Origin: Sandaracinus amylolyticus
Lineage (GTDB): Bacteria > Myxococcota_A > Polyangia > Polyangiales > Sandaracinaceae
Assembly: GCF_021631985.1 (NCBI RefSeq)
Contig: NZ_CP070225.1
Location: forward strand, 8,556,001-8,620,000
Length of the DNA: 64,000 bases
Direction: 5' to 3'
Shown here: positions 24,309 through 29,326 of the stretch, piece by piece
Numbering within the stretch: the stretch's first letter is position 1
Layout: each line of letters starts with the position of its first letter
Position numbers and translations under genes: made by a program
The notes under the pieces: model-generated
What the model was told of the DNA's origin: nothing
Seen by the model: the letters and a program-made list of their open reading frames with translations, nothing else
The model's database searches: none

Positions 24309-25034
24309 GTGGCGCGCTTCGATCGCGAGACGGGGCAGCTGGTGCTGCGGGTCGTCTACGACGGCCCGTCGCGCGCCGGCAAGACGACGAACGTCCGCTC
24401 GCTCGCGTCGCTGCTGCCGGTCTCGCGCCGATCGATGGTGCGAACACCGGCGGAGACGCCGGGCGGCTCGACGCTGCGCTACGACCTGCTCGAGGTCGAC
24501 GTGGGTCGCGTCGACTCGGCGCGCGGCGAGCACCTCGCGCGATGCGAGGTGTTCAGCGTGCCGGGCCAGCTCTCGCTCGCGTCGCAGCGCGTGGCGCTGC
24601 TCGCCGCGGCCGACGTCGCGGTGCTCGTGCTCGACGCGACACCGGGCGCGCGACGCCGCAACCGCGTGTCGCTCGAGGCGCTGCGCGCGTTCCGCGCGAG
24701 CGGCCTGCTCGAGGACGTGCCGCTCGTGCTCCAGGCGAACAAGCAGGACGTCGCGGGCGCGCTCTCGGGCGCGGCGCTCGCCACGGAGCTCGACATCCCC
24801 GCGCGCCGGGTGATCGACGCGATCGCGGTGCGCGGGGAGGGCGTGCGAGAGACGTTCTTCGCGGCGCTCGAGATCGCGCGTGACGCCGCGCGTCCTTCGC
24901 TCGAAGCGGACGCGGTGCCGATCGACGAGGGCTCCGATCCCGAGCGCACCGCCGGCGAGCTCGAGGCGCGCCTCGGCGGCGCGGTGGATCGCGTGCTGCG
25001 CGCGCTCGAGGACGACGACTTCAGCGCCTCGTGA
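24309..25034 (+). CDS. MglA-like Ras-superfamily GTPase
   Basis: A 241-residue small GTPase. The P-loop is GPSRAGKTTN (about 18-27), the switch II region has VFSVPGQ in place of the usual DxxG, as in bacterial MglA/Rup proteins, and NKQD gives guanine specificity. The start ARFDRETGQLVLRVVYDGP matches this branch. A charged tail of about 50 residues follows the G domain. With the roadblock protein before it, this makes a MglA/MglB-like pair. GTG 24309 is the start. Its last 14 bases overlap the convergent phosphatase gene. Confidence 0.88.
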   Translation: MARFDRETGQLVLRVVYDGPSRAGKTTNVRSLASLLPVSRRSMVRTPAETPGGSTLRYDLLEVDVGRVDSARGEHLARCEVFSVPGQLSLASQRVALLAAADVAVLVLDATPGARRRNRVSLEALRAFRASGLLEDVPLVLQANKQDVAGALSGAALATELDIPARRVIDAIAVRGEGVRETFFAALEIARDAARPSLEADAVPIDEGSDPERTAGELEARLGGAVDRVLRALEDDDFSAS

Positions 25035-26253
25035 GCTCGACTCCGTCGAACTCGCGGCCGGTGCCGTCGATCGCGTGCAGGCGCAGGCGCTCCCGATCCG
25101 CGACGATCGACACGAAGTGGAACGCGGTCGTCGAGAACGCGGTGAACCACGACTTGCCCACGCTGCGCACGCTGCGCCCGCCGCCGCCGGTCACGACGTA
25201 GGTGACGCCCTCGATCGGGCTCGTGCGCTCGTAGTCGTGATCGTCGCCGCTCACCACGAGGTCGACGCCGCCGTCGATGAAGAGCCGCTGGAACGCGTCG
25301 CGCAGGCTGCGATCACCGCCGTGGAAGCCGCTGGAGTAGAGCGGCGTCGAGATCACGACGATCGTCCACGGCGCGTGCGCGTTCTCGGCGAGATCGCGCC
25401 GCAGGAACGTGCGCTGCGGGTCGAGATCGACGTTCGAGTCGAGCACCACCACGTGCGCCGGTCCCCAGTCGAACGAGTACCAGCGCTCGCTGCCGCTCGC
25501 GCGATCGGGCAGCGCGAACGCCTCGAGGTAGGGCCCGGCCGAGCCCGTCGCGTGATCGTGATCGCCGATCGACGGGAAGAACGGGACCGAGGCCATGAGC
25601 TGCCCGTACATCGCGAAGTGCTTCGCCTCGAGCTGGCCCAGCGTGCCGTCCTCGTAGGCGAGATCGCCGGTGTGGAGCACCGCGTCCATCGCGACGGTGC
25701 CGAGCTGCTCGCCGACCGCGACCTGATCGGCGTTCGCGCCCCCCGAGTCGCCGAACACCACGATGCGCGCCGTGCCCTCACCGCGGCGCGGCGCGGTGCG
25801 GAACCCGGTCGGGCCGTACACCACGTCGCCGTCGCGGGTGCGGAGGCGATAGCAGTAGATGCGATCGGGCTCGAGGCCGAGCAGCGGCACGCTCAGCTGT
25901 CGCGCGTCGCGCAGATAACGCGTGTCGTCGAGCGCGGGCTCGGCGACGCTCGGCTCGTCGCCCTCCTGCTGCCACAGCTCGAGCCGCTCGGCGTTCTCCG
26001 CGCTGGTCGTCCACACGACGCGCGCCGACTCGTGCGTGACCGACTGCACGTAGGGCCAGCGCTTCACGTCGCCTCCCGGCTCGACCCACTCGCCGCACTG
26101 CGCGCGGATCTCGGCGAACACGTCGACGCGCTGCGCCGGCGGATCGAGCAGATCCCCGGTCGTCGGTGACGCGAGGATGCCGTTCATGTCGTTGGCGCAG
26201 CCCACGAGCACGAGCAGCGCAATGAAGAAGGAACCAACCGGAATGCGAGTCAT
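25021..26253 (-). CDS. Purple-acid-phosphatase-like metallophosphoesterase lipoprotein
   Basis: A 410-residue lipoprotein (LLVLVGC). An amino-terminal fibronectin-like region (PYVQSVTHESARVVWTT ... YCYRLRTRDG) precedes a metallophosphoesterase domain with GDSG, HTGDLAYEDG, GDHDH, the HxGG-type FHGGD and SGDDHDYER. This order is that of purple acid phosphatases and related phosphodiesterases, which use a dinuclear metal centre. It would act on phosphate esters at the cell surface. ATG 26253 gives the complete signal peptide. It may belong to phosphate scavenging with the pst locus, but I see no Pho box in front of it. Confidence 0.85.
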   Translation of the reverse strand: MTRIPVGSFFIALLVLVGCANDMNGILASPTTGDLLDPPAQRVDVFAEIRAQCGEWVEPGGDVKRWPYVQSVTHESARVVWTTSAENAERLELWQQEGDEPSVAEPALDDTRYLRDARQLSVPLLGLEPDRIYCYRLRTRDGDVVYGPTGFRTAPRRGEGTARIVVFGDSGGANADQVAVGEQLGTVAMDAVLHTGDLAYEDGTLGQLEAKHFAMYGQLMASVPFFPSIGDHDHATGSAGPYLEAFALPDRASGSERWYSFDWGPAHVVVLDSNVDLDPQRTFLRRDLAENAHAPWTIVVISTPLYSSGFHGGDRSLRDAFQRLFIDGGVDLVVSGDDHDYERTSPIEGVTYVVTGGGGRSVRSVGKSWFTAFSTTAFHFVSIVADRERLRLHAIDGTGREFDGVELTRR

Positions 26254-26336: not shown

Positions 26337-27689
26337 TCAGAACCCCTGTCGACTCCCGAACACGATCTGCACCGAGTCGATCGCCGCGCCGCTCACGAAG
26401 GGAGCGGTGCCCGCGGCGACTGCGACCTCGAGCGCGCCGTCGGGCTCGCCCGCGGTCGCGATGCCGAAGCCGAACGAGAGGCGCAGTCGCTCGAGCGCGA
26501 AGTCCTCGAGGTGCGCGCCGAACGCGTTGCCCACCGACACGTGCAGGCGTCCGTCGAGGCGCGTCCAGATCGGATAGAGATACTCGAGCGTCGTCGCGAC
26601 CGCGCTGCGACCGCGCAGCTGACCGCGCAGGAATCCCTGCATCAGCAGCGCTTCTTCGCCGAGCGCGATCAGATCGGTGAACGGGATCTCCTCGTCGCCG
26701 ATCGGGTCGGCGAAGCGCGCGATGCCCCAGAGCCCGAGCACGCGATGCGCGCCGAGGTCGACGAACGTGCCGACGCCCCCGCCGTAGCGGGCCCATCGTC
26801 GCTCCATCGGATCGTCGAGATCGAACACCAGCTCACCGTGCGCTTCGACGCGCACGCCGTGGCCCGGTGCGGGCTCGGGCTCGCGGGTGTCGATCGCGAA
26901 CGACGCGCGTGATCGCGATACCGAGTACGGCCGATCGAGCCCGGGTGGCGCCTGGATCTCGCCCTGCGCGATGCCCTCCGCGACCGACGGCGAGTTGCTG
27001 GAGAGCGCCGCATATCCGCGCGGATCGAGCCAGTGCCCGTCGACGCCGGTGATCACGTCGATGCGGCTCTCGCGCCAGAATCGATCGGCGCGCAGGCCGA
27101 GCTGCGCCTCGTAGGACGTCTCGCGGAAGCGGTACTGGATCGCGCGCGCGTCCCATCCGATGCCGGAGAACACACGATCGGGCCGGCGTCCGCCCTCGCC
27201 GCGCAGCTCGACGCGAAACCCCGAGCTCGTCGCGATCGCGTACGACGCGCTGCCCTGCAGATAGTCGACGCCGCCGAAGTCGAACGACGCACCGATCGAG
27301 TGGCCGGGCGCGACGTCGTCGTTCGAGAAGAACGAGAGACCGGCCGAGGGCTGGAGCCCATATGCGACGAAGAACGTCGGCACGATGCCGGAGCGACGCT
27401 CGTTCCACGTGAGCACGTCGAGCAGCAGCGTGGGCCAGCGCTCGCGCTCCGCGGTCTCGAGGAGGAGCCCGAGAGGACGGCGGATGCCGTAGTCGAGCAC
27501 CAGCGTGACCGGCGAGAACACGACGCGCGGGACCCAGAGCAGCACTTCGCCGGCGTCGGGGCCCGGCTCGGCGCGACCGTCGTAGTCGGGGCGTGCGCGT
27601 GGCTCGGTGATCGGCGCGTCGTGTGGCTGCGCCTGCGCGGAGGACGCGATCGCGAGCAGCATCGTGACGAGCAGCGCGCGCACGATCAT
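26337..27689 (-). CDS. Omp85/BamA-like outer-membrane barrel protein
   Basis: A 450-residue protein with signal peptide cut after SAQA-Q. The amino-terminal 80 residues contain VLLWVPRVVFSPVTLVLDYGIRRP (given here by its ends), then a barrel with repeated amphipathic strands, ending in QIVFGSRQGF with a terminal Phe. It lacks recognisable POTRA repeats and fits the short surface-antigen (BamA-type barrel) group. It overlaps the upstream kinase-like lipoprotein gene by four bases (ATGA), so the two products are made together and may form a surface complex. Substrate unknown. Confidence 0.75.
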   Translation of the reverse strand: MIVRALLVTMLLAIASSAQAQPHDAPITEPRARPDYDGRAEPGPDAGEVLLWVPRVVFSPVTLVLDYGIRRPLGLLLETAERERWPTLLLDVLTWNERRSGIVPTFFVAYGLQPSAGLSFFSNDDVAPGHSIGASFDFGGVDYLQGSASYAIATSSGFRVELRGEGGRRPDRVFSGIGWDARAIQYRFRETSYEAQLGLRADRFWRESRIDVITGVDGHWLDPRGYAALSSNSPSVAEGIAQGEIQAPPGLDRPYSVSRSRASFAIDTREPEPAPGHGVRVEAHGELVFDLDDPMERRWARYGGGVGTFVDLGAHRVLGLWGIARFADPIGDEEIPFTDLIALGEEALLMQGFLRGQLRGRSAVATTLEYLYPIWTRLDGRLHVSVGNAFGAHLEDFALERLRLSFGFGIATAGEPDGALEVAVAAGTAPFVSGAAIDSVQIVFGSRQGF

Positions 27690-29326
27690 CGCGTCCCCTC
27701 GCGCTCGAGACCCACCACCCGCCACGCATCGCCGCGCTGTGCGAGGTGCACGTCGATCGGCTCCGTCTGCTCGCGATCGATCGTCGCCGAGCGCACCCGC
27801 ACGATCGCGTAGCCGCGCGCCGCGTCCGGCATCGCGACGCACACCCGCGCGCCGTCGCGCTGCACCGGGAGCGCGCCGATCACCCGACCTTCTTCGTCGA
27901 TCCACGCGGCCGCATGTGCCCGCGAACGAACGGTGCGCAGCCCCGACGACACCGCGAGATCGTCGAGACACAGCGCACGATCGCGAACCACCGGCGATGC
28001 GAGCGGAGAGAGGCGCGTGAGCCAGCGCTCGAGCACGCGCTCGCGACGTCCGAGCATCACCTCGAGCAAGCGCTCCTCGACGCGGGGATCGGAGAACCGT
28101 CCCAGCGCGATCGCCGCGCGCAGGTGCGCCTCGCCGAAGCGCGACACGATGCGCGCCATCCACGCGCAGTCGCGCTCGGTGCGCCGCTCGAACGCGCCGT
28201 TCCAGTAGTTGGGCCGCCACTGCTCGGGATCGAAGCGCTCGACGTCGTAGTACCCGAGGATCGGCCACGTCGGTCCGCGCTGCGCGTCGTCCCAGGGCCG
28301 GCGCACGAGCCCGAGCGTGAAGAGATCTTCGACGACGTGCTGTCGATCGACCCACTGCGAGTGCCCGTAGCGCACCTGCTGTCGATGGCTGCCCTGGAGG
28401 TACCCGAGCGCGTCGCCGAAATCGACGAGCCGATGCAGCACCCAGCCGCGCCCGTCGCCGGTCTCTTCCCACGTCGCGAGCGTGTTGTGCTGGCGCGCGT
28501 CCCAGTGATCGAGCCACGCGTTCATCACGAACATGGCGCGCAGCTCGCGGCGATCCTCGTGGGGCACGACGTCGTTGAGATCGACGTCCCAGGTTCCGCG
28601 GTAGTCCCACGGACCGAGCGGAGGCGAGTCGAACACCAGGCTCGCGGTCGCGCGCAGCCCGTGCTCGCCCTCCTGGAACACCGCGACGATCTCCGCGAGA
28701 TCCTCCTCGGTCATCGCGCGATCGTCGCCATCGAGGCGGGCCCGCGGATCGAGCGAGATCGCCGCGCGCTCGAAGTACACGACGCGATTGCACGGCACGT
28801 GGTAGCCGGCCGCGTGATAGAGCGCGGCCACGATCGCGTCGGCGGCGGTCGTCTGCTCGGGCTGGGTCTCGCGATCGGCCTTGAGCACGAAGCGTCGCCC
28901 GCGCGCGTCTTCGATCACGAAGCCGCTCGTCGCGCCGTCGCGTTTGCCCGACACCACGCGCCACGGCAGCACCGGCTCCTCGAAGCCCTCGCCGCACGCG
29001 CCGGCCGCGATCGCCTCGGGGCGCATGCTGGCGCGGTTCTCGAAGAAGCTCGAGTCGGGCACCTCGTCGAGCGCGTTCACGTTCACCGACTCGCCGCTCG
29101 TGTCGAACGCGAGCGCGCGCGCCGCGGGGCGCACCAGCAGGTTGTCGGCGGCATCCCAGATCTCCGGCGCGTGGCGCGCGTCGGGTCGTGGACCGAATGG
29201 ATGTCGATCGTCGTCGCGCCAGACGATCGGCGTCGTCGTCGAGAACGACCGTGGACCGCTCGCACATCCGAGCGCACTCGCCGCGACGAGCGCGACGGCG
29301 ACGCGCGTGAACGACCCCGTACCCAT
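27686..29326 (-). CDS. Lipoprotein with protein/lipid-kinase-like motifs
   Basis: A 546-residue lipoprotein (ALGC, Cys21). It holds a set of kinase-like signatures: RFVLKAD (Lys149), HWDARQHN (Asp276 and Asn281, the catalytic-loop D-x4-N) and LVDFGDALG (Asp302, DFG). The order and spacing recall PI3/4-kinase, HipA and Fam20-like kinases. The amino-terminal 100 residues and the helical end are not recognisable. Being a lipoprotein, it would lie outside the cytoplasm, where ATP is scarce, so activity is uncertain. It overlaps the Omp85-like gene by four bases. I do not know a characterised homologue; the kinase fold is an inference from motifs. Confidence 0.7.
   Translation of the reverse strand: MGTGSFTRVAVALVAASALGCASGPRSFSTTTPIVWRDDDRHPFGPRPDARHAPEIWDAADNLLVRPAARALAFDTSGESVNVNALDEVPDSSFFENRASMRPEAIAAGACGEGFEEPVLPWRVVSGKRDGATSGFVIEDARGRRFVLKADRETQPEQTTAADAIVAALYHAAGYHVPCNRVVYFERAAISLDPRARLDGDDRAMTEEDLAEIVAVFQEGEHGLRATASLVFDSPPLGPWDYRGTWDVDLNDVVPHEDRRELRAMFVMNAWLDHWDARQHNTLATWEETGDGRGWVLHRLVDFGDALGYLQGSHRQQVRYGHSQWVDRQHVVEDLFTLGLVRRPWDDAQRGPTWPILGYYDVERFDPEQWRPNYWNGAFERRTERDCAWMARIVSRFGEAHLRAAIALGRFSDPRVEERLLEVMLGRRERVLERWLTRLSPLASPVVRDRALCLDDLAVSSGLRTVRSRAHAAAWIDEEGRVIGALPVQRDGARVCVAMPDAARGYAIVRVRSATIDREQTEPIDVHLAQRGDAWRVVGLEREGTR

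Follow-up and report, generated by a model that had tools for sequence, protein, structure and literature searches.

A kinase-fold lipoprotein paired with a POTRA-less Omp85 barrel in Sandaracinus amylolyticus, and the ATP/ADP carrier-like genes found near its relatives

A 64,000-nucleotide stretch of the Sandaracinus amylolyticus genome (the window) carries a gene for a lipoprotein, K, the end of which overlaps the start of a gene for a predicted outer-membrane barrel, B, by four bases (ATGA, 27686-27689). K displays the sequences FVLK, HWDARQHN and VDFGD in the order expected of a kinase and begins with a lipoprotein signal (lipobox LGC, ending at C21, followed by A at +2), and the pair raises the question of what an enzyme of this kind would do beside a barrel. 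The motifs, the lipobox and the overlap had all been pointed out in a preliminary description of this DNA, and each was found as described. The three-motif pattern, which was defined post hoc with the K sequence already in view, occurs in order in 67 of 77 homologues and in none of 20,000 shuffles of K. Features of the locus and of related loci are collected in Table 1.

Table 1. Features of the K-B locus and of neighboring genes at other pairs in the Sandaracinus genome. Positions are those of the window unless a locus (L) is named.
Feature	Position	Strand	Length or residues	Remarks
K (lipoprotein)	27686-29326, including stop	minus	546 aa	
B (Omp85-type barrel)	26337-27689, including stop	minus	450 aa	
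FVLK codons (K)	28880..28891	minus	residues 146-149	beta-3 lysine K149
HWDARQHN codons (K)	28484..28507	minus	residues 274-281	catalytic-loop D276 and N281
VDFGD codons (K)	28412..28426	minus	residues 301-305	presumed metal-binding D302
K kinase-fold domain			residues 112-440	HipA/Fam20/PI4K-like
K C-terminal domain			residues 442-544	probable Ig-like
Lipoprotein metallophosphoesterase	25021..26253	minus		PF00149, purple-acid-phosphatase-like; just downstream of B
PAP2 phosphatase	L171:5619-6620			near pair 2; likely signal peptide
PAP2 phosphatase	L173:11201-12403			near pair 4
NTT-HEAT-like protein	L171:7356-9656		766 aa	begins some 26 bases past the B gene of pair 2, on its downstream side

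Searches of K against Pfam, NCBIfam and the sequences of the PDB assigned it to no family, and the PDB profile matches that were returned, mostly to designed armadillo repeats (residues 394-459), were judged to be chance. The AlphaFold model, for which the window protein and 76 homologues were the input, has a mean pLDDT of 94.3 and a pTM of 0.93. Structure comparison with VIA-align matched residues 112-440 to CtkA (Z 14.6 over 234 residues, 4.0 A), and the same region to Fam20 (Z 13.3), PI4KII (13.1), CotH (11.8), HipT (11.6) and HipA (10.9); the best 36 rows were kinase-fold proteins without exception. Residues 442-544 bear a weak likeness to Ig-like domains of small size (Z about 7). Foldseek returned weak scores and low TM values for the whole model, perhaps because K is a multi-domain protein. 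At the profile level there is a modest match to the HipA_2 kinases (E 7e-5, probability 63%), in which K149, D276 and D302 face the K, D and D of HipA_2, and the Pfam model of that family (PF20613) has no match above its gathering cut-off in the window K and matches two of 77 homologues (best E 0.18). The model of K combines a two-lobed fold with a beta-3 lysine, a catalytic aspartate followed by an asparagine at +5 and a DFG-type aspartate. The spacing of five between D276 and N281 is that of classical kinase catalytic loops. By predicted fold and residues K appears to belong to the protein/lipid kinase-like superfamily (HipA/PI4K/Fam20-like), with phosphotransfer as its predicted activity, and the kinase-like fold, absence of which was to have refuted the earlier proposal, withstood the AlphaFold and structure-search test.

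The motifs are also conserved, as the proposal demanded: K149, D276 and N281 are present in 77 of 77 homologues and D302 in 76. Two further stretches of K, around VNxxDEVPxSSW and DDPNDxxxHxxRRxxR, are strongly conserved. A divergent subfamily from 13 loci (L048, L049, L196-L206) has lost the catalytic residues, largely retains the lipobox and both of these stretches, and adjoins an Omp85 barrel in all 13 cases. Because these pseudokinases keep the two stretches while losing the catalytic residues, we infer that the stretches serve structure or contact with the barrel, and catalysis in K would then be selected separately from them. One active-type K (L050:887-1905) is broken over two reading frames, and its genome, G092, also carries a pseudokinase (L206). 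An ORF in which barrel and kinase are apparently fused (L046:178-2925) consists of a truncated barrel and a K without its first 60 residues, and was set aside as a probable deletion or misassembly.

At the +2 position of the lipobox, K homologues mostly have A, G or S, with D or K in none of the 75 that were read. In Myxococcus xanthus, a lysine at +2 has been linked to the retention of lipoproteins in the inner membrane (PMC3222651). K has a lipobox and no inner-membrane retention residue, consistent with an outer-membrane lipoprotein. The lipoprotein signal is the single indication that K is extracytoplasmic; of the new system originally envisaged, an extracytoplasmic kinase-fold enzyme paired with a barrel, the fold and the conserved pairing are supported and the location is predicted.

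The model of B (pLDDT 90.5) is a barrel of 16 strands (residues 100-447) preceded by a helical N-terminal part (46-82 and 85-93), and contains no POTRA domain. In structure comparison it matches BamA, Sam50 and TamA with Z 21-23.5. The Omp85 profile PF01103 has no match in the window B itself and matches 45 of 60 B homologues (best 6.7e-15). Together with the 16-strand model this upholds the reading of B as a BamA-type barrel and, by the barrel itself, places the modelled protein in the Omp85 superfamily, of which 'noNterm' forms without POTRA domains have been described (PMC4104836).

K and B are each present four times in the Sandaracinus genome, and every K lies beside a B, two in the order K-B and two in the order B-K. 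Conserved pairing was one of the checks proposed for this locus, and the pair was found to recur in both Myxococcota and Acidobacteriota. B lies within 1.5 kb of K in 50 of the 64 named loci whose flanks both extend to 1.5 kb or more; the loci were retrieved via K and so do not sample genomes at random. Among 80 extracted pairs, 70 are arranged B-K and eight K-B on one strand, and two, both from Sorangium cellulosum (L093 and L102), have the genes on opposite strands. Matches to K are found in 45 of 247 Acidobacteriota genomes, a few weak partial matches included, and the barrel is upstream of K in 18 of the 19 loci fetched from that phylum. An Acidobacteria MAG has two tandem barrel matches upstream of its K (L129:2881-4965). 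The distances among K and among B proteins are correlated (0.84), which shared ancestry alone may explain.

A protein of the ATP/ADP carrier (NTT) family, PF03219, is a recurrent neighbor of the pairs, an association that goes beyond the preliminary description. The PF03219 gathering cut-off is passed at several loci (e.g., 54.6 vs 21 bits), some members with the NTT-HEAT architecture score below it, and the neighbor can be matched to NTT structures along almost all of its length (9j3n, E 1e-25; 9j3j, 1.3e-19). It misses the cut-off of TIGR00769, the NCBIfam model for NTP/NDP exchangers, by a wide margin (at most 47 vs 387.2 bits), and forms a distant subfamily of the NTT family, with nucleotides as putative substrate. 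Of 41 loci, 20 have an NTT gene no more than 5 kb from K, or 22 when NTT-HEAT members are counted, and in several genomes of both phyla the gap is 30-105 bases. Using cut-offs for a 'strong' NTT that were set once the scores had been seen, such a gene is found in 23 of the 27 genomes of the order that carry K (14 of them within 10 kb of it) and in six of the 70 that do not (Fisher p 5e-13 over 97 genomes), and in Acidobacteriota in 13 of 40 genomes with K and 11 of 207 others (p 6e-6), kinship being ignored in both tests. Strong NTT genes are absent from the remaining 27 Acidobacteriota genomes with K; in that phylum an NTT gene lies 10 kb or less from K in 13 genomes, and 105 bases or less from it in several. 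The 23 of 27 genomes with active K compare with none of six that have pseudokinases only, a small comparison drawn from a single family (f12). NTT genes lie beside many active K-B pairs; within the Sandaracinus genome they are near pairs 2 and 3, whereas pair 4 and the pair in the window have none nearby. NTT-HEAT forms are known in free-living bacteria, the NTT proteins of which are largely uncharacterised (PMC5381601).

Phosphatase genes are the other neighbors of note. The order K-B-phosphatase seen in the window is preserved in a sister genome (G008, L187:11767-12999), and the metallophosphoesterase is likely an operon partner of the window pair. At 11 of 41 loci a PAP2 phosphatase is encoded no more than 5 kb away. 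Antisense ORFs, histidine kinases, GGDEF proteins and Ser/Thr kinases also appeared in the neighbor survey and were dismissed as generic myxobacterial neighbors.

The reading we prefer, to which we give even credence, is that K is a periplasmic kinase anchored in the outer membrane, with B as its Omp85 partner and ATP supplied through exchange by the NTT protein. K would be secreted and lipid-anchored, a phosphotransferase of the HipA/PI4K/Fam20/CotH-like superfamily. The POTRA-less B would hold it, or adjoin it, on the periplasmic side of the outer membrane, and K would probably phosphorylate an outer-membrane lipid, glycan or lipoprotein. The nearby phosphatases (the metallophosphoesterase here, PAP2 elsewhere) may reverse or process this phosphorylation. 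An NTT-family carrier in the inner membrane would swap cytoplasmic ATP for ADP, a role as supplier that suggests itself because no source of ATP within the periplasm is known; how cytoplasmic ATP might reach the periplasm of Gram-negative bacteria has been described as an open question (PMC7432876). There is a precedent for the arrangement in PlpD, whose enzyme acts next to an Omp85 barrel, at the inner leaflet (PMC11116518). The kinase fold, the conserved catalytic residues, the Omp85 barrel, the conserved pairing and the NTT linkage are computed support for this reading, from which we infer the location of K in the outer membrane and on its periplasmic side, catalysis by K, its substrate, physical contact between K and B, and the substrate and direction of the NTT protein.

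The main rival is the scavenging of nucleotides or phosphate, as by predatory or soil bacteria, with B as the uptake pore, the phosphatases trimming prey nucleotides, the NTT protein importing them and K binding or salvaging them. This would explain the phosphatase and NTT genes near the pairs but not the invariant catalytic loop, since D276 and N281 are needless for mere binding, and we know of no role for Omp85 barrels as nutrient porins; scavenging is considered unlikely. In its favor, the characterised NTTs are mostly nucleotide importers (PMC5381601). If B, as channel or as carrier, brought K to the cell surface in the manner of two-partner systems, there to use external ATP on extracellular substrates, this would agree with the conserved pairing and with the ability of some Omp85/TpsB members to translocate proteins (PMC4104836). 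However, the enzyme domain of the related PlpD stays periplasmic (PMC11116518), B lacks POTRA domains and an inner-membrane NTT would be of no direct use to a surface enzyme, making this route improbable.

Kinase folds with other activities exist, and K might perform another chemistry, such as AMP transfer, or be a nucleotide sensor that controls B. That a subfamily without catalytic residues retains the barrel fits such a role, but every core catalytic residue is conserved in the subfamily of the window K, and we hold this to be rather unlikely. The same pseudokinases, paired with a barrel at each of their loci, speak for a K that serves B as a plug or structural partner and whose kinase fold is a relic. 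A pseudokinase plug was among the earlier suggestions and does not suit the window protein: its catalytic residues are intact, they are invariant throughout its subfamily, the subfamily that lost them is a separate one, and NTT genes co-occur with the pairs. We consider a plug very improbable.

All parts of the preferred system, a kinase, a barrel and a carrier, come from known superfamilies. HipA, HipT, CtkA and HipA_2 (PF20613) share the kinase fold (Z 10-15) and the aligned K-D-D residues with K; unlike K, to our knowledge, they are not lipid-anchored outer-membrane partners. Fam20 and CotH have the fold in common with K (Z 12-13) and are described as acting outside the cytosol (PMC7948968, PMC7821199), but they do so in the Golgi or spore coat and have no barrel partner, and no sequence relation to K was detected in this analysis. 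In PlpD (patatin-Omp85) and the metallo-Omp85 proteins (PF00149), an enzyme is joined to a 16-strand Omp85 barrel (PMC11116518, PMC4104836); there it is a fused lipase or PF00149 domain, whereas K is a separate kinase-fold lipoprotein, and B differs from those barrels in being POTRA-less. The neighbor gene is related to the NTT carriers, NTT-HEAT forms included, by its near full-length profile matches, and differs in falling so far below the TIGR00769 cut-off. A literature search, mainly of open-access papers, found no Omp85-kinase system in which these parts are combined, and because no such bacterial system has been described there, the combination is judged to be new, on computational evidence.

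Tentatively, and with rather less than even confidence, the system may be seen as a bacterial counterpart of the secretory-pathway kinases of eukaryotes, in which a kinase anchored in the outer membrane has its own Omp85 partner and an ATP/ADP exchanger in the inner membrane energises the periplasm. If the NTT link is functional, it would constitute a dedicated route for ATP into the periplasm, where the kinase K would use it and the Omp85 barrel would position K, and would suggest what POTRA-less Omp85 proteins, and the NTT proteins that free-living bacteria encode, may do.
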